A stretch of 64,000 nucleotides of DNA from an uncultured delta proteobacterium (GTDB lineage Bacteria; Myxococcota; Myxococcia; Myxococcales; 40CM-4-68-19), in NCBI GenBank assembly GCA_903911145.1, contig CAIWCD010000013.1, positions 62,001 to 126,000 on the forward strand, in the 5' to 3' direction. A model generated the notes under the pieces. It searched no databases. It was not told where the DNA came from and was given only the letters and a program-made list of their open reading frames with translations. The position numbers and the translations under genes were made by a program. Positions 22,838 to 38,996 of the stretch are shown here, piece after piece (positions within the stretch are counted from its first letter, which is position 1; each line of letters opens with the position of its first letter).

Positions 22838-25800
22838 CTAGTACTCCCCGACTGCGCGAATAAAGAATCCGCCCGCCGTGTGATCGTACCGCGCGAGTTC
22901 ATCGTCACTGAAGGTGGTGAAGTTCCACCCCGCTCCGATGCGTGCGTAGCGCGACGGCTTGAACGCTGCCTCGAGGAGAATGCCCCGCTCACCGTCGCCG
23001 CCGATTCCAACCGCGCCACTCGAAGGCCCGCGCAGCGCGAGCACACGGAACTCGCCCGAGAAGTCGACCATCTTGTGCAGATGCACGTCGAGACGGTTCA
23101 CCCAGAGCCACGTGCTCGTGTCGAGCGCAGGCCCGCCCGCAAGCACGTCGCGCGTGTGCTTGTAGGCAACCTTCTCGGCGATCGCGATGTGGAACGGCAG
23201 CTCGAACGTCGGTGAAATCGCGAGCACATCGCTCGTCTGCTCGTCGCCGATCCCGCTCGTCAGATCGAGCGGACGTAGATCGACGAGGTGGGTCACCTTG
23301 AACATCACGGCGAGCCAGTCGGTCTTCACGGGGCGATAAGTGAGGCCCGCCGTCAGCTCGACCCAACGCGCTTCAGTGAGCTGCGGGCCGGTCGGGTTCT
23401 CGACGTTCTGCGCCTGCGTCTGCGCGATGTGGACGCGGCCGAACGTGCCGAGATCGTCGCCCCACTTCGAGGTGAGATCGACGCTGACGAGGAAGTGCAG
23501 ACGATCGGCGACGCCGGCCATCGTACCGACGAGGCGCTGATCCGCCTGGTCGAGGCGCAGTTCGCCCTTCGCGGAGAGCTTGAAGCGCTCGCTCGCGAGA
23601 TATTCGATCGAGACGCTGCCGGAGTCGCGCGTGGTGGTGCCTGGGTAGTACGCGCCCGCTGGATTGTATGAGAGTCCGCTGCCGCTCGAGCAGGCCCCGG
23701 CTGCTCCCGCGACTGGAGGCGTGCCGCTGTTCGTGGTCGTGCCCGGGATGCAGGTCGCGATCGGATTGAGCGACGTGCCCGAGATCGGAGACTGGCCGGT
23801 GATGCCGCCGAGCGTGCCGCCCGGACCCGCGCCGGGGATGTTCTGCCCGTCGCCCGCCACGCCGCCGCCGAGGCCCGCGCCGATGCCCGCGATCACCTGC
23901 GCGCGCTCGAACGCCGCCGACGCGAAGAGACCCGGACGGACCTCCCAGCGGTTCTGCATGCCCATCACCGCGCGCTGCGCCGCCGCGCTCGACTGGTTGT
24001 CGAGCTGGTACTCGCCGTACATCCGGGTGCCCGCAGCGATGCGCTCCTCCGCGCCCACCACGGTCGTCGTCTGCAGCGCGCCCGAGGTCTCGGTGAACCG
24101 CTCATTCAGATAGCCACTGCTCAGCGGCGAGAAGAGAGGAGTGCGCAGACCGAGCACTGTCGAGTTGTTTCCGTTCCAGAGAATCGTCTCCTGCACGTCG
24201 GCGTAAAGCTTGTCGGTGAGCTTGTAGGTCGCGCCCAGCAAGGTCGAGACGCGCTCGCCCCACGACGGATACTGGCTCGCGTCCGCATTCCAGGTCCCCT
24301 GCTGGTAGAGGCTGAAGTTCAGCTTTGGCGTCGCGCGGAAGATCGCACCGAAGAGGAGCTGATCCGCGAACGTCGTGCCGATCGCCGAGTCGTCCGTATA
24401 GGTGTCGTCGATCTCTGCGGTGAGCGTGAAGCGACCCGCGAGAGTGTCGGACTCGCCCAGCGTGTGCGAGGCCTGGATGCCACTGAAGCGGCGCAGCACG
24501 CGCTTGGTCGTGTACCCATTCGTGTCGTCGAAGCCGAGCGCGACATCGCTGGCGACCTGATCGACGCGGCCGGTGATCTGCGTGCGCATGTCGGGCGTCC
24601 AGCGCAGGAGCAGGCCAGCCTTGGTAGCGCCCTGATCCATCGCGCCGCCCGAGCTGTAGAAGCCCTGATCGCGCGTGTCGAAGTAGATGTTGGCGCGCAG
24701 CAGATCGCCCGGACCAATCGCAGGAGCGCCCGGCATTCCCGAGGGAGTTGGGAGCGGAGGCGGCGCCGCAGAATTGCTTTGAGTACCAACTGTTGGTGTA
24801 CCAACCATCTCCGCGGACTTCCTGTGCAGCCACTCGCCGAGCTCGAAACCGGCCTCGATACGCAGCGCGCGTCCCGTCGCGTTGCAGGCGTAAAGATCGG
24901 TTGCCGCGTTGAGGCACGACGGCGTGAGCGAGCCGAACGTCAGGCCGCCGTCGACCGAACTGTATGACTCGGCGTCGGTGCCCTTTGACTGCGCGACCTC
25001 GATGTTGATGAACGTGTGCGGCTTGGGCTTGTAGCCAATGTTCAAACCCGCGAGCGTGTAGGCCGAGCCGCCCGAGTAGTTTTCAGAAGCGATGCCGCCG
25101 CCCGCAGTCAGCACGCCGAAGAGCGTCTCTTGCAGATGCGCGCCGGCCGCGTGCCCGCCCTGCCCGGCCGCTCCGCGGTAGTCGTAATCGACGACCACGA
25201 AGATGGGGTGACCGCCCAGCGCCGTCGTGTAGTTCGCGCTCGCGAGGAACGAGGCGTCAGCGACGCTCGGGATCGCCTGCTTGAAGATGACCCGACCCTC
25301 GCTCGCCTGGATTGTGTAGTCGACGTCGCGCGCCTGCGGCACGGAAGTGAGCTCAATGCCCGTGTTCGCATCGCGCACGACGAGCCGCACCTGCTCGGAG
25401 CCGGCAATGATGTCCGAGTCCTTGAGCCAGTAGATGCTGCCGCCCGTGCCACGCAGTTCGCCGTGCGCGTGGTGCTGGCGAAGGTCTCCGTTGGCGCCAA
25501 AGAGATCGAGCTTGGTGTCGAGGCCCGGCTTGCCCGCGCCCGCGATGGCTGCGCTCTTCTGCACGCTGAGATCGATCCCGTAGAGAGTGCGATCGAAGCG
25601 GAACAACTGCTCCGTGCTCGACGGCATCTCCGTCTTGAAGTTGCCGACGATGAGGTGGCTCTCGTCCGCCTTGAGGTTCAAGTAGATGGGACCCTGGCTC
25701 GTCGCCTGCTGGCCGAAGAGGCCGCTGTCGCCGTCGACCGGATAGTAGTGCGACGGATCGTAGAGTTCGACGAACGCGTCGGGCGCGTTGCGGCGCGCGG

Positions 25801-28800
25801 TGTCGAAGTTCCCGGAGAGCTGCACGTCCTTGATGAGCCCGCTGAGCTTCTGCGAGAGATCCCAGCGTCCCTCGACCACGCCCGCGGCGCGGCCCTTGAG
25901 GAAGACGCCGCCGAAGTCAGCGCGATCGCCGACGCCGTCGAGCGCGGCTCCGCCCTGGCCGAAGTCTCCCTCGCCGAGCAGCAACATGAAGAAGCCGTCG
26001 GGGTTGACGTGGACCTGTCGTTCGATGGTGGCGCTCTCGCCGTTCGGATCGGTCGAGACGAGCGCGAGGCTCTGATCGCCGCGATGCAACGGCACGCGCA
26101 CCGCGAACGCGCCCTGCTCATCGAGCTTCACCGATGCTCCGTTGAGCGTCAGCTTGTTGCGCGGATCAGTGGAACCCCGCACCCAGAGAGCCTCTGCGCG
26201 CACGAGCGTTCCGGCGGCAGGAAGGTCCGCAGAGAGTTTGGCAGCGAGCGGCGCACTTCCGGTCGCGACGTCAGCCATCGCCATCGTCTTCATCTGCACG
26301 GCACCCGAGATCGTTTGAGTGCCAACGATCGGGGATCCGTTCGAGGGCGCGGCAACGGCAGGAAGCGCCGCAATGGGAGCAGGCGCTGCAGTTCCCGCAT
26401 CCATCGACACCTCGACCGCAGCAGACCCGAGCGCGGTCGACGAATTGCTTTGAGTGCCAATCATCGCCTGCGCCGAGGAGGCACGGACGTTGGAGACGAG
26501 GGCGGGCGCGCCAGGAGCGGGTTTCAGCTCTGTCGACGGGAACGGGAGCGCCAACTGCAACGTCGCGCTCGCGCCGCTGGTGAGCCGCACATCGATCGGC
26601 AGCAAGGTCGGGAGGGACTTGATCTCGCCGACGAAGCTTGCGCCATCGGCGTGCATCGAAGCGTCGCCGAGCCGCGCGGCTGAAGGCATCGCCTCGGCTT
26701 CGGGCAGCGCTTTCTCTGCGGCCATCGCGGAGAAGAGCACGCGGTTGTTGGCGCGGCGACCCGAAGCGTTGGAGTTGGAGGCGATCGGAAGCGTCTCTCC
26801 GCGCGCACGCACGAGGAGCTGCGCCTCGGGCACACCGGCGGCGACGAGTGCGGCCTTCAGCTCAGTCGCGCGAGCTTCGGAGAAGGCCTGCGCGTCGCGC
26901 GCGTCGTCGGTGAAGACGTCGACCACAAGGCGACCATCCTCGCCCGCAGAGATGAGCAACTTGTCCGCCACGCCCTTCGCGTTCACCACGCCTTCGCGCG
27001 AGAGCTTGCGTTCGCGGCCGTTGAAGAGCGTCGCACCCTGCATCGTCGAACGCATCACCGGATCCGGAGGAGGCGACGCGATGAACTCGGCAACTGGCGA
27101 GCGGCCCTCGCCGCCACCACGCACGCGCACCGAGAGGCGAGCGCGCACAACGCCCGCGACCAGCGGCTTGCTCTCCGGCCACGAGATGCGCTGCGGAGGC
27201 GTTCCCTCACCAGCGACTTCCGAGGACTGATCGGTGTCGGTCGATTCGACGACGAGCCGCCAGGAGACGACGTCATCGACCGGCGCGCCGATCGCGAACG
27301 AGAGCCCGCGCGGAATTCCGCCCGTGTCGACGAGCACGCGCTTGGACGGACTTCCCTCGACGAGCGGCTCCACCGAGAGCCCGAGAAGCGGAAGCGCGAA
27401 CGAGTTGTTGCCGATGCTCAGCGTCCGCGTCGGCGCATCGAGGCGCAGCGCGATGGGCGCGGCAGGCACCGCAAGCGGCTCCTTCGGCACGGTGAACTCC
27501 GTGCGCTCGCCATCGGTCCCCTGCAGCACGACCGCAGCGCCCTGTCCGTGAGCGAGCTCCGCGATCGGCTGGCCGATGGTCATCGCGAGAGGCTTGCCTT
27601 CGTATAGCGTGAGCGCGTCGGTGTGCACCGCCTCGGGCGCGGGAGGCGGAGTCAGCGGCTTCATCAACTGGATGACGATGCGCCGATTCTTCAGGCGCGC
27701 CTTCTCGGTGACATTGATCTCGAGCGGAACATCGCTGCCACGTCCGCGAGCGTGGATGCGCTCGGGCGCGATTCCTGCCGTCAGCAGCAGCTCACGCACG
27801 GCGCGCGCACGCTGATCCGAGAGCACATGCTCCTCGTCAAGCGAGCCGAGGTACGCGGTGTGAACCTCGACCTCAACCTGAAGTTCCGGCTTGGCCTTGG
27901 CCGCCTCGATCGCCTTCGCAATCTGCTTGGCGAGTTCTGGCGTCTGCGTCGCGTTCTGCTCATCGAAGAGCTGGCCGTGAAGCACGAATGTCGCCACCGA
28001 CTCCGCGGGCGGAATCTTCGCGATCACGCGCAGCGGCAGGATCGGCGAAACGTAGCGACCTGCGTCCGAGCGCAGCTCGAGTTGCGCGCGCAACGTCGCG
28101 CCGATCGGCAGCGTGCCGACAGGAGCAAGCTCGATCGATTCCGGCGGGGCTCCATTCGCGAGCGCCTCGCCGAGCAGCGTGCCCGTCGCGTCGGTGAGCG
28201 AAACGCGCCACGAGAGCGGAACCGGTCCGCCTGCGAGGAGCGCCTCGAAGTGCAGCGGCTTCTGCGCGGCGGCATCGACCTCGATGACGTTCTCGTGCGC
28301 CGTCTCCTTTGCCTCGCTCAAGAGGCGCAGCGAGCCGCGCGACATCAGCAGCGGCGTTCCATCGACGCGCAACTCGAGCGCGCTTGGATCGGCCACCAGC
28401 GTGCGCGTCTGCGGAGGAGGCGGCGGAACATAGCGGACGCTCACGCGATCGGGACCGACCAGCTTGCGCTGGCAGGAGACAGGGAAGTTTCCGCGCGCGT
28501 CGAGACCCGCGGTGAGATTGGTGGTGATCGATCCGTCGTCGAAAATCGTCGCGCCCGGCGGCAGCGTGCGCGGGTCGATCTTGAAGCGATGCAAGCCTGG
28601 TTGCAGGCCGCGGAAGTGGAACTTGCCGGTCGCATCCGTCTCGGCGAACCAGCCCTCGTCCTCGTAGATGCGCACGCCTGGCACGCCGAGTTCATCGGCA
28701 TCCTGGCCGTACCCAGCGCGGCCCGGAGCATCCTTCTCGCAGTAGACCTTGCCGACGAGCGACGAGAGATCGAAGAGCGGATCCTGCGCGATGCGGACGA

Positions 28801-31800
28801 TGGCGCTGTCGCTGTTGGAGACGTTCACGCCACCTGCGCGCGCAACGGCGCTGTTGATCGCATCGCCCGGCTTCGCGCTGGTGAGCACGACCGCCTGGTA
28901 GCGCAACTCGAGCGTTTCACCCGCCGCGAGATCGTAGGGACCAAAGTCGAGATTCGCGCCGACCGTTGCCTGGCCTGACTTTCCGGCGTCGGGCAGCCTC
29001 GGGCCGAGCCGCGATGCCGCGCAGTTCGCGCCCAGTGCATCCTGCGACAGCAGCGGGCAGTGCCTCGTCGCCGCGGGCTGGACCCCGTTTGCCGTCGTCA
29101 CGGAATTGATTGGTGCCGGAACCAATCTATCCGCACGCGCCGAACCAGCCGCGTAGCGAAGATCTGCAGGCAGCACGTCCGCGAGGTGCACGCCGCCGTT
29201 GCCGTTGGCGTCGACGAGCATGTCCTGCGAGCTCGGATTCTGCAGCGTGATCGAATAGCCGACGAGATCGCCAATCATCGCGGTCGTGCGGGTCGCGACC
29301 TTCACCAGGCGCAGCGACGAGCTGTCGAGCTCGACGTGATTGTTGGTGACGACATCACCGGGAGAGAGCGTGAAGCGCTGGAACCAGCGCGGCGTCGTGG
29401 ATGCGTTGGGCGCACCGAGAGGAACGACAGGGCCGTTCGTCGCGAATCCCGGCCACGGCGCCGGCTTGCTTCCCGGGAACGAGAGCATCGGCGTCTCGGG
29501 CAGAACCATGAGTCGATAGTGGCGCGGGGTCCCGTCGCCAGATCGTGCGCCTGCACTCGTGCCCGCGACGAGGTCGAAGCGATAGAGGCCGAGCGAGCCC
29601 GTGGTCTGCGCCTGCTGGCCTGCACGCAAGCAACCGGGGCTCACGGCACGCGGCAGAATCTTGCCGTCCGCGAACCGCTGCGGACCGACTGCAATCGTCG
29701 ACTGATCGGCCTCGCATGATGGAGGCGTCTGCCCGACTTCGCTGTCGTCGTAGAGCAGCACCATGCGCGCGCCCGCGACGACGCTGCGATCAGCGCGCAC
29801 GAGCGCACCGCCCGGCTGCACGGGAAGATCGAGTGCCACGACATTGCCGCCCTGCCCGCTCGACGTGACCGGCGCGTCGAGGAAGTGCGTTCCCTCGGGA
29901 GACACCACCTCGATCCCATAGCCAGCCGGCGGCAGATCGTTCGCACGGTAGTTGCCCTGCGCGTCGGCGATGACCGTCTTGATCGGCGCGCCACCGTTCA
30001 GATCGGCGCGGCGTACGAGCACCTGGAATCCAGGCAGCGGGCGGTCGCCGTCGCCGACGAGGCCGTCGCTGTTGAGATCCCACGCGACCTTGCCGGAGAC
30101 GGATGACGTGCCCTGCGCCTGCCCGACGACGACGACAACCGGCATCGCCAGACGCGAATCGAGCGGCGTCGCCCGCACGCCGGCCTCGTTGCGAATGGTC
30201 GAACCGAGCGCGACGTTGGCGAGGACCTTGACGCGGAACTGCAGCTGCGCCCTGCCGCCTGCGCGGACCGTGACATTGCTCGCAGTGATGATCCCCGCGC
30301 CGCCCGCGGTGGACTGGAACGCGATGGTTCCATCGCCCGTCGCGCTGCCCGCGACGTAGCTGAGACCAGGAGGAAGCGTGTCGTCGATCAGCGCCTGCGT
30401 CGCATCGACACCGCCGCCGTTGACGAGCGTGATTGTGTACGTCAACGCGTCGCCCGGCTCGACATCGCCGCCGTTCTCGTCGAGCACGGCCTTGCTGCTG
30501 CTCGAGAGATCGGCGCGGCTCCCAGCGCCCACCGGCGTCAGCGTCGGCTGGATTCCCGGCAGGGTCGGATCGCCATCGCTGTTGATCGAGATGCCGCCGG
30601 CCGCGTTGATCTGCGCCTGGTTCGACAGCGTGCCCGGCTGATCGACATGCATGCGGAACGTCGCGATCGCGTGCGCTCCTGCTGCGAGCGCGCCGATCGG
30701 AACATAGACGCGCGTGCCGATCACGTTGCCCGAGTCGGGAAGCGAAACTGTGTTGAGTACCAACGATCCGGCAACGTACGTCGCGCCCGCCGGGAGATCG
30801 TCGATGATCCCCACAGCGTTCGCCGCCGCGCTGCCGTGGTTGTCGACTTCGATCGAGTATTGGATCACGTCTCCAACATCGACCGCGCCGTTCTGGTTGA
30901 CGTCTGTCGCCAGCGACCAACTCTTCACCGCGGTGAGCAGCGGCGCGCTTCCCACGACCACCGTGGTCGCATCGCCGAGAACAGGCGTCGTCGGATCATC
31001 CGTCACGGCCTGCGGCACGCGATCTGCGCGCAGCATTCCCTGGTTCGAGATCTGCGTTCCGGCGAGCGCCGAGTCCGAGACGCGCACGCGGAAACTGACG
31101 GCCGCGACGGTGTCATCGAGGGCCGCGCCCGTCGAGACGAGCATGGTTCCATCGGCCGTGCCCGCGCGCGCGGAGTGCACACGCAGGCCCGTCGCCAACG
31201 CGCTCTGCCCGCTCACGTCGGTGACGGTCTGCCCGTTGAGCATCGTGCTGCCCGCCACGTACGTCGTCTGCGGCGGAGGCATATCGGTGAGCACCGTGTT
31301 GGTCGCCACCTGGCTGCCGTCGTTGAGTACATGGATCTCGTACTCGAGGATGTCGCCTGGACGCACGACGCCGCCGGTCGAACTGACGTCGGTCACGGTC
31401 TTCACCGAATGTGACAAACGAGGCGAAGCTGTCACAACGAACTTCGTCGGATCATTCGGTGCCGCGGTGTTCGGATCGTCGGTGAGCTGCGGCTGGCCTC
31501 CGCTGAGCTCATCGAAGCTGAGCGCTCCCTGGTTGGCAACGACCTGCTGATCGTTCGCCGACGAAGCGATGACAGCTGTGAACACGAGATTGATCGACGC
31601 ACCCGGCGCGACCGTGGCGAGCGAGGCGAGACTGGTCGCGCTCCAGACGACCGAACCACTCGTCACGTTGCCCGTCGGGGCGGCAACATGCGTGAGCACA
31701 GGATCGATGGCATCTGCGACCACGACGTGATCGGCATTCGCATCGCCGCTGTTCTTCACCGCGATCGTATAGGTGACCGCATCGCCAGGACGCCACGTGC

Positions 31801-34800
31801 CGTCGCTGCGGCTGTTGTTGACGACCGTCTTCGTGCTCGTGTGCAGATCGGCGATGGCCTTCACCGTGAACCGCGTCGGATCGCTCGCGGCCTGCGTCGA
31901 CGGATCGTCGCTGGGCAGCGGCTGCGAAGACTCATTCAGATTGAGCGCGGCCTGATCGCTCACCACGGTTCCATTCGCAGTGCCCGGCTTCACGCGCGCG
32001 CGCACCGTGAGTTGCACAGTGCGCCCATTGACGAGCGTCCCGAGCGAAGGCGTGGTCGCGGCCGTCCAATCGAGATGCGCGGGATTTCCGCCCGACGCAG
32101 CCGTGAGAATTCCGCCCGCGCCCGCGCTCAGCGTGTCGAGGTTTGAGTCGATCGGATCGACAACGTGCACGCCCGTGGGATTGAACGTCCCGTTGTCCGT
32201 GACCGTGATCGTGTACGCGACGAAATCACCGGGATGGATCGTCCCGTCGCTGCGCGGCGTCTCGGCCCGCACGGTCTTGGCCAGCGCGAGCACCGGATAG
32301 TGCACGGTGATCTTCGTCGCATCGTGCGCGGCGGCCGTCGACGGATCGTCTGTGACATATCCGCTCGATTCGTCACAGGAGAGATTTCCCTGGTTGCTGA
32401 TGACCGTGCCGTCCGCAGTCGTCGAGGCGACCTGCGCGGTGAACGTCAGCGTCACGGCGTTCGCAGGCCCCGGCGCGACGTGCGCGAGCGCGGGAACGAT
32501 CGAGGGAACCCAGGTCAGTGCGCCGCCCGTGACGCCAACGCCATTGCTGCCCTGCGCGTTGACGAGGTTCGCGTCGATCACGTCGGTGACCACCACATTG
32601 TCCGCGTAACCGGTGCCGCTGTTGATGACCGTGATGGTGTAGCTGAGCGTATCGCCCGGCCGCACCAGTCCTGCCTCGCTCTGGCCAACGACCGACACGG
32701 TCTTGGTGCTCGTCGAGAGATCGGGCCTCGAGCTCACCTTCACGACCGTGGGATCCTTCACCGCACCCGTCGACGGATCATCGGAGAGCTGCGGCTGGGT
32801 GATCTCCGACGAAGTCACCTGTGCCTGGTTCGAAATGCTCGTTCCATTCGCGACCGTGGTCTTCACGCGCGCCGTGAACCGGATCGTCGCCGTCGCGCCG
32901 GCCGTGATCCCGCCGACGTTCCAGCGGACCGATCCGCTCGTGAACGTGCCGCTGTCGAGCGGCGTCACCTGATCGAGATTCGTCGTGTCGATCGCATCGG
33001 TCACGACGCTGTTCGTCGCGTTCGCATCTCCCGCATTCGGGACCTTGATCACGTATGTCAAGACAGTGCCCGGAGAGACCGCGGCCGCGACGGTCTGGCC
33101 GTTCGCGAGCTGCGCGACCTTGGTGATGCCGGAGAGATCGGGCGCGGAGTGAACAGTGAAGCTCACGGTGTTGGTGTTGACGTTCGACTGCAGCTCGCTC
33201 GCCGCGAAGGTCGCAAAGTTCGAGATGCCGGTGCTGTCCGCGATCGGCTTCGCGATCGTCGCGACGAACGCCAGCGCGATCCCCGTGCCGGGCGCAACGC
33301 TCGCGAGATTCCACTGCACCGTGCGCGTGCCGCTCGTGTAGCTGCCGCCCTGCGCCGCGGAGACGAACGTGAGGTTCGCGTCGAGCACGTCGCTCACGAC
33401 GGTCGCTGTCGTCGCCTCGTCGCCCGTGTTGATCGGCGTGATGGTGAACTGCAGTTGATCGCCCGCGTGGAAGCTGCCGTCGGTGCGCGTGAGGTTCTTC
33501 ACCGCCTTGGTGCTCGTCGAGAGATCCGCGGCGCTGACGACGGTGAACTTCGTCGAGTCGTGCGGCGCCTGCGTGCCCGGATCATCGCTGAGCGCGGGAG
33601 CCAGTCCCTGCGCGCTCACGCTCGCCTGGTTGGCGATCACAGTCCCGTTCGCGAGCGGCTTCTGCACCACGGCATCGAACGTCAGCACGATGGGCGAATC
33701 GTTCGGGTTCAGTGTCTGCGCGGGAGAGAACGTGATCGTGCCCGAGGTGAACGTGCCACCCGCGATGGGCAGCACCGGCGTCAGGCGCGGGTCGATCGCG
33801 TCGGTCACGACGATCTGGTGAGCCGCGGCCGTGCCCGTATTGGGGACAGTGATCGTGTAGCGGACGGTGTCGCCCGGATGGATCCCGGCAGTGCTGTGCG
33901 GGGGATTGCCAGGAGCTGCAGCGACGGTCTTGGTGATCGAAGAGAGATCGGGCGCGCTCTGGATCGTCACGACCGTCGCGTCGGCAGTCGCGGGAGTCGC
34001 CGGATCGTCCGAAGGCACGGGCGTCGTGATCTCGCTCGACGTGGCGAAGGCCTGGTTGGAGATCGTGACTCCGTTCGCGAGGGGGGACGCGATCGTGGCC
34101 GTGAGCGTGAGCGAAGCCGATGCGCCGGCTGCGAGCGAGGCCCAACTCGCGCTGAGGACGCCGCCGCTGATGTTTGCACTGCCACCGCCGGTCACGCCGG
34201 AGACGGACGGATTGGTCAATCGCGGATCGATCGTGTCGCTCAACCGCACATTGGTGGCCGCGGCCGTGCCGTCGTTGGGGATCGTCAGCGTGTAGACGAC
34301 CGTGTCGCCGGGCTGGCGCGATTGGCTGCCCGTGAGCGCCTTGGTGAAGCCGGAGAAATCGGGCCGGCTGCCGAACTGCATCACCACGATCGTCGGGTCG
34401 CCCGGAGCGCCCGTTGCGGGATCGTCGCTCAGCGTCGTCGCGCTCGCGAGCGTCTGCGCGCCCTGTTCGGGAAGCTGCTTGCCGTTGATCTGCGCCGACG
34501 AGATCCCCACGCTCTGGAACTGCGCGACGCTGAACGCCGTCGTCTCCCAGACCACCTCGAGCTGGAAGTTCGCGGGCACCTTCATGTTGGTGAGATCGAA
34601 CTGCCCGGTGTTGTTCGCGCCGCCAGGCTGCACGCTGAGCGTCGCGTTGCTGTCGCCCTGCGAGACGACGTCGAGTCCTTGCGTGAACGGCGGCGCATCG
34701 ACATGCAGGTGAACGCCTGTCGCCGCGACCGCGCCAGTGTTCGTCAGCACCAGCGTGTACTGCAGCGTGTCGCCAGGATGCGCGTTGTGCGGCGCCGTGT

Positions 34801-35380
34801 TCGAGGCCTGCCCATTGACACGCACCGTGAGTTCTGGAGTGCCGAGCTGCGGGCCTGCGACGGACGTGCAGGGATTGGTCGTCGCTGCGTCCGCACCGCC
34901 GCCACCCGTGATGTTCGAGGTGTTGCAGATCTGTCCGGATGCGTTCTGGTTCACCGTCACGCGAAAGGTGAAATCGACTTCATTGAGCGTGAAGCCGAAA
35001 AGAGAGATCGGCAGCTGCACCGGAAAGCCGGGGAACTGGATCGTCCAGCCCGCCACCAGCGCGCTCGTTCCGTTCTGATCGGCGATGTCGAGGCTGAGCG
35101 GGAAGCCAAACGCCGCGGCCTGCGGAGCCGTCGCCGAGGTCGAACCGGCCACGTACGTCGTCCCCGCCGGGATGCCGTCCTGCACGGTGATCGTCGCGGG
35201 GTCGCCCGTGCTGATCACCTTGATCGTGTACGTGAGCGTCTCTCCCGGCAGCGCCGTCGTCTTGTCGACCGACTTGCTGCTCTGTGAAAAATCAGGAGCC
35301 GCCTGCACCGACAGGGCACAGAGGGCAATCGCCAGCGCAGCTCCGATGGATGCACGCACGTTCTTCCGCCTCCACTGCAT
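22838..35380 (-). CDS. Giant outer-membrane protein: DUF11 repeats, SdrB and OmpA domains, C-terminal beta-barrel
   Basis: A 4180-residue protein with a signal peptide (ASIGAALAIALCALSVQA). Residues about 29-1750 hold twelve DUF11 (TIGR01451-type) modules, each with a motif like PGDTVRYTITVPNTGTAAA and VVTDAIDPRLTPV. An SdrB-like module follows (VSGKVAWDLNSDGLVGDGDR, about 1757), then a thirteenth DUF11 module (about 2010-2090) and a second SdrB module (GVPGVRIYEDEGWFAETDA, about 2220). Two OmpA-like peptidoglycan-binding domains lie near 2510-2577 (LSDQRARAVRELLLTAGI, LKNRRIVIQLM) and 2780-2890 (second copy, more divergent). From about 3130 to the end is an aromatic-rich beta-barrel ending in Tyr. 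A GTG at 35359 with GGAGG nine bases before it may be the real start. Likely a surface fibre anchored by its own barrel. Confidence 0.85.
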   Translation of the reverse strand: MQWRRKNVRASIGAALAIALCALSVQAAPDFSQSSKSVDKTTALPGETLTYTIKVISTGDPATITVQDGIPAGTTYVAGSTSATAPQAAAFGFPLSLDIADQNGTSALVAGWTIQFPGFPVQLPISLFGFTLNEVDFTFRVTVNQNASGQICNTSNITGGGGADAATTNPCTSVAGPQLGTPELTVRVNGQASNTAPHNAHPGDTLQYTLVLTNTGAVAATGVHLHVDAPPFTQGLDVVSQGDSNATLSVQPGGANNTGQFDLTNMKVPANFQLEVVWETTAFSVAQFQSVGISSAQINGKQLPEQGAQTLASATTLSDDPATGAPGDPTIVVMQFGSRPDFSGFTKALTGSQSRQPGDTVVYTLTIPNDGTAAATNVRLSDTIDPRLTNPSVSGVTGGGSANISGGVLSASWASLAAGASASLTLTATIASPLANGVTISNQAFATSSEITTPVPSDDPATPATADATVVTIQSAPDLSSITKTVAAAPGNPPHSTAGIHPGDTVRYTITVPNTGTAAAHQIVVTDAIDPRLTPVLPIAGGTFTSGTITFSPAQTLNPNDSPIVLTFDAVVQKPLANGTVIANQASVSAQGLAPALSDDPGTQAPHDSTKFTVVSAADLSTSTKAVKNLTRTDGSFHAGDQLQFTITPINTGDEATTATVVSDVLDANLTFVSAAQGGSYTSGTRTVQWNLASVAPGTGIALAFVATIAKPIADSTGISNFATFAASELQSNVNTNTVSFTVHSAPDLSGITKVAQLANGQTVAAAVSPGTVLTYVIKVPNAGDANATNSVVTDAIDTTNLDQVTPLDSGTFTSGSVRWNVGGITAGATATIRFTARVKTTVANGTSISNQAQVTSSEITQPQLSDDPSTGAVKDPTVVKVSSRPDLSTSTKTVSVVGQSEAGLVRPGDTLSYTITVINSGTGYADNVVVTDVIDANLVNAQGSNGVGVTGGALTWVPSIVPALAHVAPGPANAVTLTFTAQVASTTADGTVISNQGNLSCDESSGYVTDDPSTAAAHDATKITVHYPVLALAKTVRAETPRSDGTIHPGDFVAYTITVTDNGTFNPTGVHVVDPIDSNLDTLSAGAGGILTAASGGNPAHLDWTAATTPSLGTLVNGRTVQLTVRARVKPGTANGTVVSDQAALNLNESSQPLPSDDPSTQAASDPTRFTVKAIADLHTSTKTVVNNSRSDGTWRPGDAVTYTIAVKNSGDANADHVVVADAIDPVLTHVAAPTGNVTSGSVVWSATSLASLATVAPGASINLVFTAVIASSANDQQVVANQGALSFDELSGGQPQLTDDPNTAAPNDPTKFVVTASPRLSHSVKTVTDVSSTGGVVRPGDILEYEIHVLNDGSQVATNTVLTDMPPPQTTYVAGSTMLNGQTVTDVSGQSALATGLRVHSARAGTADGTMLVSTGAALDDTVAAVSFRVRVSDSALAGTQISNQGMLRADRVPQAVTDDPTTPVLGDATTVVVGSAPLLTAVKSWSLATDVNQNGAVDVGDVIQYSIEVDNHGSAAANAVGIIDDLPAGATYVAGSLVLNTVSLPDSGNVIGTRVYVPIGALAAGAHAIATFRMHVDQPGTLSNQAQINAAGGISINSDGDPTLPGIQPTLTPVGAGSRADLSSSSKAVLDENGGDVEPGDALTYTITLVNGGGVDATQALIDDTLPPGLSYVAGSATGDGTIAFQSTAGGAGIITASNVTVRAGGRAQLQFRVKVLANVALGSTIRNEAGVRATPLDSRLAMPVVVVVGQAQGTSSVSGKVAWDLNSDGLVGDGDRPLPGFQVLVRRADLNGGAPIKTVIADAQGNYRANDLPPAGYGIEVVSPEGTHFLDAPVTSSGQGGNVVALDLPVQPGGALVRADRSVVAGARMVLLYDDSEVGQTPPSCEADQSTIAVGPQRFADGKILPRAVSPGCLRAGQQAQTTGSLGLYRFDLVAGTSAGARSGDGTPRHYRLMVLPETPMLSFPGSKPAPWPGFATNGPVVPLGAPNASTTPRWFQRFTLSPGDVVTNNHVELDSSSLRLVKVATRTTAMIGDLVGYSITLQNPSSQDMLVDANGNGGVHLADVLPADLRYAAGSARADRLVPAPINSVTTANGVQPAATRHCPLLSQDALGANCAASRLGPRLPDAGKSGQATVGANLDFGPYDLAAGETLELRYQAVVLTSAKPGDAINSAVARAGGVNVSNSDSAIVRIAQDPLFDLSSLVGKVYCEKDAPGRAGYGQDADELGVPGVRIYEDEGWFAETDATGKFHFRGLQPGLHRFKIDPRTLPPGATIFDDGSITTNLTAGLDARGNFPVSCQRKLVGPDRVSVRYVPPPPPQTRTLVADPSALELRVDGTPLLMSRGSLRLLSEAKETAHENVIEVDAAAQKPLHFEALLAGGPVPLSWRVSLTDATGTLLGEALANGAPPESIELAPVGTLPIGATLRAQLELRSDAGRYVSPILPLRVIAKIPPAESVATFVLHGQLFDEQNATQTPELAKQIAKAIEAAKAKPELQVEVEVHTAYLGSLDEEHVLSDQRARAVRELLLTAGIAPERIHARGRGSDVPLEINVTEKARLKNRRIVIQLMKPLTPPPAPEAVHTDALTLYEGKPLAMTIGQPIAELAHGQGAAVVLQGTDGERTEFTVPKEPLAVPAAPIALRLDAPTRTLSIGNNSFALPLLGLSVEPLVEGSPSKRVLVDTGGIPRGLSFAIGAPVDDVVSWRLVVESTDTDQSSEVAGEGTPPQRISWPESKPLVAGVVRARLSVRVRGGGEGRSPVAEFIASPPPDPVMRSTMQGATLFNGRERKLSREGVVNAKGVADKLLISAGEDGRLVVDVFTDDARDAQAFSEARATELKAALVAAGVPEAQLLVRARGETLPIASNSNASGRRANNRVLFSAMAAEKALPEAEAMPSAARLGDASMHADGASFVGEIKSLPTLLPIDVRLTSGASATLQLALPFPSTELKPAPGAPALVSNVRASSAQAMIGTQSNSSTALGSAAVEVSMDAGTAAPAPIAALPAVAAPSNGSPIVGTQTISGAVQMKTMAMADVATGSAPLAAKLSADLPAAGTLVRAEALWVRGSTDPRNKLTLNGASVKLDEQGAFAVRVPLHRGDQSLALVSTDPNGESATIERQVHVNPDGFFMLLLGEGDFGQGGAALDGVGDRADFGGVFLKGRAAGVVEGRWDLSQKLSGLIKDVQLSGNFDTARRNAPDAFVELYDPSHYYPVDGDSGLFGQQATSQGPIYLNLKADESHLIVGNFKTEMPSSTEQLFRFDRTLYGIDLSVQKSAAIAGAGKPGLDTKLDLFGANGDLRQHHAHGELRGTGGSIYWLKDSDIIAGSEQVRLVVRDANTGIELTSVPQARDVDYTIQASEGRVIFKQAIPSVADASFLASANYTTALGGHPIFVVVDYDYRGAAGQGGHAAGAHLQETLFGVLTAGGGIASENYSGGSAYTLAGLNIGYKPKPHTFINIEVAQSKGTDAESYSSVDGGLTFGSLTPSCLNAATDLYACNATGRALRIEAGFELGEWLHRKSAEMVGTPTVGTQSNSAAPPPLPTPSGMPGAPAIGPGDLLRANIYFDTRDQGFYSSGGAMDQGATKAGLLLRWTPDMRTQITGRVDQVASDVALGFDDTNGYTTKRVLRRFSGIQASHTLGESDTLAGRFTLTAEIDDTYTDDSAIGTTFADQLLFGAIFRATPKLNFSLYQQGTWNADASQYPSWGERVSTLLGATYKLTDKLYADVQETILWNGNNSTVLGLRTPLFSPLSSGYLNERFTETSGALQTTTVVGAEERIAAGTRMYGEYQLDNQSSAAAQRAVMGMQNRWEVRPGLFASAAFERAQVIAGIGAGLGGGVAGDGQNIPGAGPGGTLGGITGQSPISGTSLNPIATCIPGTTTNSGTPPVAGAAGACSSGSGLSYNPAGAYYPGTTTRDSGSVSIEYLASERFKLSAKGELRLDQADQRLVGTMAGVADRLHFLVSVDLTSKWGDDLGTFGRVHIAQTQAQNVENPTGPQLTEARWVELTAGLTYRPVKTDWLAVMFKVTHLVDLRPLDLTSGIGDEQTSDVLAISPTFELPFHIAIAEKVAYKHTRDVLAGGPALDTSTWLWVNRLDVHLHKMVDFSGEFRVLALRGPSSGAVGIGGDGERGILLEAAFKPSRYARIGAGWNFTTFSDDELARYDHTAGGFFIRAVGEY
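24771..24810. repeat. Dispersed A+T-rich repeat inside the giant gene (member b)
   Basis: The patch GAATTGCTTTGAGTACCAAC, followed by TGTTGGTGTACCAACC, contains the inverted repeat ACCAAC-T-GTTGGT. In the gene's frame it encodes MVGTPTVGTQSNS. It shares ACTCAAAGCAATTC (minus strand) with member d. Confidence 0.6.
26307..26330. repeat. Dispersed A+T-rich repeat inside the giant gene (member c)
   Basis: GATCGTT-TGAGTGCC-AACGATC is a perfect 7-base inverted repeat. Its minus strand shares 17 consecutive bases (TTGGCACTCAAACGATC) with the intergenic repeat at 11191-11234. It encodes IVGTQTI in frame. Confidence 0.65.
26441..26466. repeat. Dispersed A+T-rich repeat inside the giant gene (member d)
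   Basis: The minus strand reads ATGATTGGCACTCAAAGCAA, sharing ATGATTGGCACTCAAA with the intergenic repeat at 11191-11234. It encodes MIGTQSNS in frame, nearly the same peptide as at 24771. Confidence 0.65.
29107..29127. repeat. Possible further repeat member in the giant gene (member g)
   Basis: GATTGGT (29107-29113) and ACCAATC (29121-29127) form a perfect 7-base inverted repeat, preceded by GAATT as in members b and d. It is more diverged, so membership is tentative. Confidence 0.35.
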
Positions 35381-35421: not shown

Positions 35422-35667
35422 CTAAGCTTCGCGCAACCTGAGCTTCGCCTCTTCGTCGACGATGGCAACGAAGCTCAATCCGCAGTAGGCGCAGAGCACG
35501 TCATCGCCATTTCCAAACGCGTCATGCGGGTTGTTTGCCGAGCAGATCGGACAGTCGAATTCGCTGAAGCGCCGCCGCCTGCCGAGAGCAAGACCGGACC
35601 TCTTGGCCTCGTCCTCCTCGGCCTCGGCGTTCTGCTGCAGTTGATCCGCTCTGCTCTGCGCGCTCAT
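35422..35667 (-). CDS. Small zinc-ribbon protein
   Basis: An 81-residue cytoplasmic protein. The N-terminal half is charged and Gln/Glu-rich (SRADQLQQNAEAEEDEAKRS). The C-terminal half is a zinc ribbon with FDCPICSANN and LCAYCGLSFVAI, i.e. two CxxC pairs about 20 residues apart. No function is assignable. It lies between the esterase-like gene (22 bases upstream on the same strand) and the giant gene (41 bases downstream), so it may share a transcript with either. Confidence 0.75.
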   Translation of the reverse strand: MSAQSRADQLQQNAEAEEDEAKRSGLALGRRRRFSEFDCPICSANNPHDAFGNGDDVLCAYCGLSFVAIVDEEAKLRLREA

Positions 35668-35688: not shown

Positions 35689-37974
35689 CTAGAACGCCTG
35701 GCCGTTGGCAGGCGGCAAGGTCCGATAGTCGTGGTCGATCACGCCCATCAACTCGATGATCGCTTGCGCGTACTGGGTCTTGTCCTCCGCGGTGCCCGAC
35801 ACGCCCTGGCGATCGACAAAGAAGCTGCCGGTGTCGCATTCGCGCTGGTATCCGAGGCTCTGGTAGCTGACGCCCGCGTCGTTGCTGTCGAGGCAGGCCT
35901 TGTCACCGCTCGCGTCGACCCAGCAGCACTGGCCCGAGGGAAACACGGTGATCATCGGATGCGCGAGGCCCGAGGTCGCGAGCACGTTGGGAACCGCGCC
36001 GGTGCCGGCCATCGCTGTCGACGTCATGCCGTAGCCATGCAGCACGAACGCGACCGGATACCGCTTCGTCGCGTTCGCCGGATCGTTGTAGCCGGGCGGC
36101 AACATCACCGAGTAGGCCCAATCGGCGCCGAGCGTCGTCGAGTGCAGCACCAGATCCATCTGGTTGACGCCCGCTCCGCTGAACGGCTTGGGCGGGCCCA
36201 GCACCGGGTCCCAACGCGCGGAGAGCCACTGGAAGAAGACCGCGAAGCGATCGTACGTCTCGGCGAGCGAGCCGACGTGATCGCCGTTGCCCGCGCGGAT
36301 GTCCGCGACGCTCGCGTTCGGATTTCCGTAGAGCACGAGCGTGTTCCGCCCCAACGCCGAGATGTCGAAGCTGAGCGGATTGAAGTCGTTCTCGGGATCG
36401 CTTCCGGGTGCTTCGCCGTAGGTCCACGGCAGTCCCGACGCAGAGGGGATATCGGGGAAATCCTCGAACCGCGTCAGCGCAGGCGTCGGCACGGCCAGCT
36501 TCACGCCGCCCGCGAGCGCCTCGGCCTGCGCGCCGAGATCGAACACGTCGCGAATGCCTCCCTCGAAGTAGAAGTCGAGCCCCGCCTTGCGCTCAGCGGT
36601 CATCGTCGGGAGCGAGCTGCGCAGGTCCTGGGCGAACCAGTGCGCGTAGCCGGGCGACATCGTGAACTTCCCGTCGCCCTCGCCCTCGTCGCTGGTGCCT
36701 GCGACGCCATCGAGGCCGACGTCCTCGAACGGCTCGCCGAGATCGTACTTCCAGTTCCCCTCGGTGCCCGCCGGGTTTGTCTGCGGATTGTAGTTGTCAC
36801 CGTTCGGATCGGCGACGCCTCTCGCGAACGGGCTCAACTCCGCCGTCGTGCAGCCGCCATCACCGGCCTCGAGCTTGTCCGGGCAGCCATCGACACCGAC
36901 ATCGCTGAACGGCTCGTGGCCTTGCAGGAGAAGCGGCTCGTTCAGATCGCGCCGGCCGTTGCCATTGATGTCGATCGCGAGCACGAACGGCACGAGGACA
37001 TTGCCCTCATAGCAGCCGAGGTTCTCGCCCATGTGATTGAAGTAGAGGTCGACCTCGGCCGGGTTGCTTGAGTGCTCGTTCGCCTCGTGCGCGTTGCCGC
37101 CGTGCGTGGCGCAGAACCCGCTGGCATCGCTGTACTGCGCGAGCGCGCGTCCTTGCAGCGCCGCCGCCGCGCACCAGTCGACCTGCGTGCCGTCGTCACA
37201 CAGCATCAGCGGCGGCTGGCCATCGCAGAACGTAATCGCGTTGTGCTCGCCGTGCGGGCTGTAGTCGCGATCGATCACGTTGTGCACGACATAGGGGCTG
37301 GCACAGCTGATGTTCGCGAGTTCCTCGGGCTTGATCGGCGAGGCGAGCGACGGGCTGTGCGGATTGTGCGAGACGGGATTTCCCATCGATTCGGCGAGGT
37401 CGCCGAACACCTCGAGATAGAAGCCGCGATCGAAGTGGCCACCGTTGAGCGTGAAGGCCCAGTGGTTGAACCGCTGCGAGCGCGAGTACTTCGTCAGCGG
37501 CGTCGGATTCGTCTGCGCGCAGCCGGCGATGCGATCGAGGCGATCCATTCGATTGCCATTGTCGAGCTTGTCCGCGGCCGCGGCCGCCTCGAGTTGCGCT
37601 GGCGAGCAGAAGCCACCGAGGTGCTCGTATTCGATGTTGTGCAGAATCAGCGCCGCATCGAGAGGGCCGCCGAGCGCGCCGATGGCGTCGAAGAGATCGG
37701 GGCGGCTCGCGACGATGCGCGACGAGCCGATCGCGCCCATCGAGACTCCTGAGATCGCGTGGAACAGGTAGTGGCGCGCGGGCGCATTGCAGGTCGGCTT
37801 GCCAGGCGTCGCGGGAAGTCCCGCGGGCGTGTCGGTGCAGACCAGCGTCGCCGCGCAGGTGATCGTCGTACTGCACGCCTCACCGCGCTGCGCGATCGCG
37901 GGCGGCGGAGTCGCCTTCTTTTGGCAAGCGGCAGAGCAGATCAGGACGGCAATCAGAGCCAGGCGACGATGCAC
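35689..37974 (-). CDS. Esterase-like lipoprotein with the alpha/beta-hydrolase halves in reversed order
   Basis: A 761-residue lipoprotein; the GTG at 37974 gives MHRRLALIAVLICSAAC (lipobox SAAC, GAGG upstream). After a Cys-rich linker, the nucleophile elbow comes first: HAISGVSMGAIGSSRIVASR, then PDLFDAIGALGGPLDA, with Ser about 78. The middle (about 270-430) has Asp-rich calcium-type segments (DINGNGRRDLNEP; DPNGDNYNPQTNP). The part that normally precedes the elbow is at the C-terminus: SVMLPPGYNDPA, RYPVAFVLHGYGM (about 643) and ELMGVIDHDYRTLPP at the very end. The family is esterase D / putative esterase. The order suggests circular permutation. Substrate unknown; likely outer-membrane attached. 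Confidence 0.75.
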   Translation of the reverse strand: MHRRLALIAVLICSAACQKKATPPPAIAQRGEACSTTITCAATLVCTDTPAGLPATPGKPTCNAPARHYLFHAISGVSMGAIGSSRIVASRPDLFDAIGALGGPLDAALILHNIEYEHLGGFCSPAQLEAAAAADKLDNGNRMDRLDRIAGCAQTNPTPLTKYSRSQRFNHWAFTLNGGHFDRGFYLEVFGDLAESMGNPVSHNPHSPSLASPIKPEELANISCASPYVVHNVIDRDYSPHGEHNAITFCDGQPPLMLCDDGTQVDWCAAAALQGRALAQYSDASGFCATHGGNAHEANEHSSNPAEVDLYFNHMGENLGCYEGNVLVPFVLAIDINGNGRRDLNEPLLLQGHEPFSDVGVDGCPDKLEAGDGGCTTAELSPFARGVADPNGDNYNPQTNPAGTEGNWKYDLGEPFEDVGLDGVAGTSDEGEGDGKFTMSPGYAHWFAQDLRSSLPTMTAERKAGLDFYFEGGIRDVFDLGAQAEALAGGVKLAVPTPALTRFEDFPDIPSASGLPWTYGEAPGSDPENDFNPLSFDISALGRNTLVLYGNPNASVADIRAGNGDHVGSLAETYDRFAVFFQWLSARWDPVLGPPKPFSGAGVNQMDLVLHSTTLGADWAYSVMLPPGYNDPANATKRYPVAFVLHGYGMTSTAMAGTGAVPNVLATSGLAHPMITVFPSGQCCWVDASGDKACLDSNDAGVSYQSLGYQRECDTGSFFVDRQGVSGTAEDKTQYAQAIIELMGVIDHDYRTLPPANGQAF

Positions 37975-38123
37975 GGAGCGACCTCGGCGTTCGCGAAAGT
38001 CGCGCACACTACAGTGAGAGAGGAAATGCCGCATCCGGCTTCTTCCGGTGCAGATCTGCCGCGAAAGTTTCGCTGCAACCGAGCGCGCGATTGGCAGGAG
38101 ATTGGAGTACGACTTCCCGCCGC

Positions 38124-38996
38124 ATGCGCTCTCTCGCGATCGTCCCGCTGCTCCTCGCTCTCGCCCCCAGCGCCATGCGTGCTGACGGGCCGCACGCACA
38201 AACTCCCGCGGCGACGCCCCGCGCCGAGCCGCAGAGCGACGAACTCGCACCACTCTGTCCAGCTCTGCCGGCCTCGGTCGAAAACCACCGCTTCGCCGCG
38301 GGCGAGCAACTCCGCTTCCACCTCGACCTCTACGGCGCGGACGTCGGCTCCTTCCAGATCGATCTCGAGCCGCCTCCTCGTGCCGAGAGGGAGCGCGTGC
38401 AGTTACTCATCCACGCACGCGCACACACGTCGGCCTTCGTCTCGACCAACCTCGGCGACTACTCGGGATTCGCCATCTCGCGCATCGGGCCGGGACTTGC
38501 TCCGCTCTCGACGCATGAGGAGGTCGACGAGGGATCGACGCATTGGTTGCACGAAGCAACCTTTCCGCCGAGGCAGGGAAAGCTCGACGTGCACGCGAGC
38601 AAGAACGGCGAGCCTGCTCCGCTTTCGCTCTCAGCGACGCCATCCGCGCGCGACCTGCTCTCAGCGTTTCTCACTCTGCGCGCCGCGCCGCTCACAGCTG
38701 GCACGCAGCTCTGCGCAGAGGCGTTCGGGGGCCGCCGCATCTGGAAGATGACAGGAACGATCGGGCCGCATGAACAGCTCGAGACGCCGCTGGGCAAGTT
38801 CGACACGGTCCGGATCGATCTGCTCTCTGCGCGCGTCGACGAGCCGCGCACGACCCGCGCCGCGCACTTCTGGATCACGGCTGACGAGCGCCGATTGCCG
38901 ATCGCTGCGCTCGCGGAGATCAAAGGCAAGACGATCCGCGCCCAACTCGAGTCAGCGAGCGGACGCGGATGGTCATTGGGCAAGAAGGCGAACTAG
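38124..38996 (+). CDS. DUF3108-type periplasmic protein
   Basis: A 290-residue protein with a Sec signal peptide (MRSLAIVPLLLALAPSAMRA). The body matches the DUF3108 pattern: AAGEQLRFHLDLYGADVGSF, later ATPSARDLLSAFLTLRAAPL, RRIWKMTGTIGPHEQLETPL, GKFDTVRIDL and FWITADERRLPIAALAEIKG. These proteins are predicted to be all-beta and periplasmic; their role is not established. The ATG at 38124 is chosen because the signal peptide starts there. The gene is divergent from the esterase-like gene with a 149-base gap. Confidence 0.8.
   Translation: MRSLAIVPLLLALAPSAMRADGPHAQTPAATPRAEPQSDELAPLCPALPASVENHRFAAGEQLRFHLDLYGADVGSFQIDLEPPPRAERERVQLLIHARAHTSAFVSTNLGDYSGFAISRIGPGLAPLSTHEEVDEGSTHWLHEATFPPRQGKLDVHASKNGEPAPLSLSATPSARDLLSAFLTLRAAPLTAGTQLCAEAFGGRRIWKMTGTIGPHEQLETPLGKFDTVRIDLLSARVDEPRTTRAAHFWITADERRLPIAALAEIKGKTIRAQLESASGRGWSLGKKAN
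38545..38561. repeat. Palindromic repeat inside the DUF3108 gene (member k)
   Basis: GGTTGCACGAAGCAACC is a 6-base stem (GGTTGC/GCAACC) with a 5-base loop. It is the reverse complement of the intergenic repeat at 15345-15360 and here encodes WLHEAT in frame. Confidence 0.55.

Follow-up and report, generated by a model that had tools for sequence, protein, structure and literature searches.

The window, a stretch of 64,000 nucleotides, carries on its minus strand a reading frame running from 37974 to 35689, which encodes the esterase-like protein described here (Table 1). The start codon as given is GTG, and an ATG lies slightly upstream. The N-terminus (LIAVLICSAAC) is a signal-peptide stretch with a lipobox cysteine, the feature by which lipoproteins are recognised, and Cys17 is invariant in 29/29 close homologues. 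Pfam matched mainly the C-terminal piece of the protein, over profile positions 1-67 of Esterase (PF00756), with 27.5 bits against a gathering cut-off of 22; the same model matched 28/28 family members at E<=0.01. The family is annotated only by this C-terminal fragment because domain models meet its halves in the wrong order.

Table 1. Features of the esterase locus, in coordinates of the window.
Feature	Position	Strand	Evidence or remark
Candidate permuted esterase gene	35689..37974	-	761 aa; ORF real, homologues known
Lipoprotein signal peptide, lipobox SAAC	37924..37974	-	Cys17 invariant
Proposed N-terminal core after permutation (residues 66-110): beta5, nucleophile elbow, helix C and beta6	37645..37779	-	Ordinary-order columns 392-426; 7xrt 142-208
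Nucleophile elbow G-V-S78-M-G	37735..37749	-	Ser78 in 52/52
Insert rich in Asp and Cys (residues about 121-448), after beta6 and before beta7	36631..37614	-	Alignments; cap position (PMC11878206)
EF-hand-like loop DINGNGRRDLNE (residues 335-346)	36937..36972	-	D335, N337, N339, E346 in 52/52; D343 in 51/52
Strand beta7 with the candidate acid Asp476 (GGIRD)	36529..36585	-	Asp476 in 52/52; lines up with the acid site in ordinary esterases
Candidate catalytic His566 (GNGDHVG), then helix F	36271..36291	-	His566 in 52/52
Putative linker of about 18 residues between helix F (old C-terminus) and beta1 (old N-terminus)	36157..36210	-	Approximate boundaries; His-to-HGxG spacing
Proposed C-terminal core after permutation (residues 607-756): beta1-beta4, helix B	35707..36156	-	PF00756 positions 1-67; 7xrt 25-142; columns 263-391
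Oxyanion-strand motif HGYG (646-649)	36028..36039	-	Motif search, alignment
End of helix B, DHDYRT (747-752), proposed new C-terminus	35719..35736	-	Conserved end across all homologues
Divergent neighbour, DUF3108 (PF11306)	38091..38996	+	Pfam E 1.4e-12

The DUF3108 gene of the window and the esterase are divergent, and 117 bases separate that gene from the esterase start. This arrangement recurs: one or two DUF3108 genes, mostly divergent, adjoin the esterase in most class-level loci (presumably Polyangiia by name) that have enough flank (the window, L004, L006, L007, L009-L013, L015-L020, L022, L024-L029, L054 and L082). DUF3108 proteins have been described as outer-membrane beta-barrels with the YmcC fold (PMC4364669). 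Together, the lipobox and the DUF3108 neighbour suggest a role of the esterase in the outer envelope. We found no report of this gene pair in the literature searched.

Four motifs mark the course of the chain: GVSMG at residues 76-80, GGIRD at 472-476, GNGDHVG at 562-568 and HGYG at 646-649. A sequence-only reading of this DNA had located GVSMG at about residue 78 and the HGYG segment near residue 643, far toward the C-terminus, and both placements agree with ours. The protein finishes in ...VIDHDYRTLPPANGQAF before the stop codon (the end is also given as ...DHDYRTLPPANGQAF), just past the helix that in ordinary esterases precedes the nucleophile strand. In all 52 aligned members the chain stops after this helix (...ELMxHVDxxYRT) and a short tail, the ends lying between a few and about 20 residues from the helix. 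The view of the earlier reading that the protein ends with the segment leading into the nucleophile strand extends to every homologue.

Homologues were found in 40 of the 147 genomes of the class, a few of these matches being weak and generic. A profile search at E<=1e-10 detected the permuted family in 59/195 Myxococcota genomes, and whole-genome searches added three further genomes from two other phyla; carriers in those two phyla were 2/2 and 5/5 of the genomes examined. The source genome itself holds a paralogue, 63% identical, with an identical motif order. Comparing homologues was one of the checks that the sequence-only reading had proposed for the order, and the answer was uniform: nucleophile, acid, His and HGxG follow one another in this sequence in 52/52 aligned members, drawn from Myxococcota and the two other phyla. 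Across about 390 genomes, every member with both halves was permuted, matches to one half only seem to reflect incomplete hits or short contigs, and whole-genome searches revealed no ordinary-order relative with the same insert. Viral contigs contained no relatives, and a search of a plasmid collection returned a single generic ordinary hydrolase (Rubrobacter) and no family member. The literature searched, which takes in few subscription journals, did not describe any permuted family of feruloyl-esterase-like enzymes. Tandem copies with identical scores occur in genome G039 (contig C5, 9117-11261 and 12821-14965), and tandem copies are also present in G038 (contig C62).

We compared the family with 14 ordinary-order esterases, collected from related genomes by profile search. 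In profile-profile alignments of the natural-order profile, the C-terminal piece matched ordinary columns 263-391 (98.5%, E 2.5e-15) and the N-terminal piece matched columns 392-426 (94.7%, E 6.4e-8): the two swapped pieces abut without a gap, the family C-terminus ending at column 391 and the N-terminus starting at 392. A reversed-sequence control against the same 14 esterases gave nothing (0.1%). The earlier reading held that joining the C-terminus to the N-terminus would restore the usual order, and rotation of the profile did fuse the pieces into a single alignment to the ordinary esterases (99.5%), lowering E from 2.5e-15 to 2.3e-23. A scan of cut points over the 14 esterases summed to 356.7 bits for the natural order and to about 415 bits when the ends were joined and the cut spared the conserved strands; the exception was a new cut that breaks a conserved strand, which brought no such gain. 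The pieces also abut within single ordinary esterases (L085, 176-213 then 213-244; L095, 349-374 then 374-422).

The PDB search gave the same picture. Positions 537-619 of the natural-order profile aligned to residues 25-105 of the 7xrt chain, 670-692 (the family C-terminal end) to 119-142, and 22-88 (the family N-terminal end) to 142-208. The match had an E of 1.8e-18 in natural order and 8e-31 with a rotated core profile, which reached the acid site. Rotation likewise lengthened the PF00756 match from positions 1-67 to positions 1-152. No member follows the beta1-to-beta8 chain order of alpha/beta-hydrolases; all are permuted. Taken together, these comparisons make it very probable that the family is a circularly permuted alpha/beta-hydrolase with its halves in swapped order.

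The ancestral chain would have run beta1-beta4/helix B - beta5 (Ser)-beta6-cap-beta7 (Asp)-beta8-(His)-helix F. The break would have fallen in the helix B-beta5 loop, with a short linker, about 18 residues long, bridging the former termini. The present chain would then read beta5(Ser78)-beta6-[large Asp/Cys-rich cap with EF-hand-like loop]-beta7(Asp476)-beta8-His566-helix F-linker-beta1-beta2-beta3(HGYG)-beta4-helix B. Packed together, the halves should form a single active site of the ordinary kind, in which HGYG makes up the oxyanion side beside the nucleophile elbow. AlphaFold2, run with four sequences (the window protein and three partial homologues, none covering the C-terminal half), gave a pLDDT of 31.6; because that model came from too few sequences, we infer the packed fold from homology.

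The Asp-rich insertion that the sequence-only reading saw in the middle of the protein is present. It contains an invariant EF-hand-like loop, DxNxNGxxDxxE (D335 to E346), which follows the EF-hand pattern D-x-[DN]-x-[DN]-G-x-x-[DE]-x-x-E, together with further Asp/Gly-rich repeats and cysteines. Among 28 members at E<=0.01, Pfam reported only Esterase and Abhydrolase_1, with no match to an EF-hand or dockerin family. Caps and lids of the alpha/beta-hydrolase fold usually sit between beta6 and beta7 (PMC11878206), and the insert occupies this very position. The insert probably binds calcium, which may stabilise the cap. One member, L082 (285-2325), is without most of the Asp-rich repeats, but its permuted core is complete and the EF-hand-like loop is retained; it offers a minimal construct for structure work.

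Ser78, Asp476 and His566 are invariant in 52/52 members, and HGxG is kept in 51-52/52. Asp476 lines up with the acid-bearing strand of the ordinary enzymes (GiRDlfnf versus GDDDFLSV in 7xrt, and GirDvfnl versus GAHDEFAL in L100). The homology of the Asp segment to ordinary esterases is weak and by itself not significant, and profile comparison gave no significant homology of the His part to ordinary esterases. We therefore propose Ser78-Asp476-His566 as a candidate catalytic triad from invariance and register, with invariance and position as the only basis for His566. The protein would be expected to hydrolyse esters.

Several other explanations of the swapped order have to be weighed. An assembly error, or a chance juxtaposition of two gene fragments, has as its sole support the caution of the earlier reading about a rearrangement at this locus. 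It is refuted by dozens of full-length homologues with the same order in independent assemblies: with the paralogue, they leave a practically negligible chance of an artefact, and more than 50 relatives with the same swap indicate a stable natural rearrangement, not a sequencing error. A permutation real in sequence could also belong to a domain-swapped dimer, in which the halves complete each other across chains and the active site is intermolecular. Sequence alone does not separate intramolecular from intermolecular packing, but the His-to-HGxG spacing (46-94 residues, mean 84 in the 52 members) leaves roughly 18 residues for a linker, which should suffice to bridge neighbouring ends within one domain, and we regard the dimer as very unlikely. 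The large conserved Asp/Cys-rich insert would suit a catalytically dead protein that acts as a calcium-dependent envelope binding protein; a dead enzyme, however, would not need an essentially invariant Ser78, Asp476, His566 and HGxG glycines, and this reading is highly improbable.

Circular permutation is uncommon among natural enzymes. To our knowledge, one full-domain permutation is documented in the alpha/beta-hydrolase superfamily, that of the type 2 PHB depolymerases; Hisano and colleagues reportedly called 2D80 a circularly permuted variant in 2006. The same kind of permutation is already known: the type 2 enzymes (2D80/2D81) are naturally permuted, with the order Ser - acid - His - oxyanion, as in the permuted family, and their new termini lie in the loop before the nucleophile strand, apparently the same loop. 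They are defined by an oxyanion hole C-terminal to the triad (PMC2666664), which is where the oxyanion segment of our family lies, and the order in 2D80/2D81 is Ser39/40, His155 and oxyanion Cys250 (PMC7034887). Unlike our family, the type 2 enzymes are without the large insert, and they carry an HGC-type oxyanion segment and a WDWWG motif near the C-terminus. A common order and cut loop are what one would expect if the family were a divergent type 2 branch that inherited its permutation, yet the alignments make this unlikely. Against seven type 2 enzymes, found via a short motif and checked against 2d80, the family profile reached a probability of 5.7% over 33 columns of the elbow only, compared with the 99.5% of the rotated profile against ordinary esterases; in the PDB search 2d80 was unmatched at E<=1, although a type 2 enzyme from the set matches it at 8e-49. 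These comparisons found no significant kinship to the type 2 PHB depolymerases, and a very old permuted ancestor shared with them is possible but disfavoured.

The best sequence relatives of both halves are CE1-type feruloyl esterases (PDB 7xrt, 5vol, 8bbp, 1jjf; PF00756), and the closest homology among solved structures is to ordinary-order feruloyl esterases (7xrt). These enzymes share the nucleophile, oxyanion and acid motifs with the permuted family. They have the ordinary order and a catalytic domain of about 270-290 residues without the Asp/Cys-rich insert, whereas the permuted family has its halves swapped and consists of lipoproteins of roughly 600-760 aa. The sequence-only reading had compared the protein with esterase D: an alpha/beta-hydrolase in permuted order stands, but esterase D proper gives way to the CE1-type enzymes as the nearest relatives. 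Esterase D / S-formylglutathione hydrolase (TIGR02821), of ordinary order, matched 13/28 permuted members weakly, and much more weakly than the feruloyl esterases did. Type 1 PHB depolymerase (NF050058), also of ordinary order, matched both halves weakly, with 28.6 bits for the paralogue, far under the curated cut-off of 150 bits.

With no significant kinship to the type 2 enzymes, the permutation event looks independent, and an independent permutation of a feruloyl-esterase-like enzyme would be the simplest reading. It is likely, in our judgement, that such an alpha/beta hydrolase was permuted independently of the type 2 PHB depolymerases, with the break likewise in the loop preceding the nucleophile strand, and that the product settled into several bacterial phyla as a stable and diversified family of lipoproteins, which combine a calcium-type cap with DUF3108 as a partner. 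Two permutations at one loop, apparently independent of each other, would point to the stretch ahead of the nucleophile strand as a favoured site for reopening this fold, and such a loop would be useful for enzyme engineering.

On its other side, the esterase gene of the window is followed by a small ORF of 81 aa (35422-35667, minus strand) with a CxxC...CxxC zinc-ribbon-like pattern and no Pfam family above cut-off. This ORF lies between the esterase and the gene for a giant protein of 4180 residues, directly downstream (22838-35380, minus strand), which has about ten DUF11 repeats as well as OmpA and SdrD_B domains. A relative of the giant protein, 35% identical, follows the esterase in another family (L127, 7701-12999).
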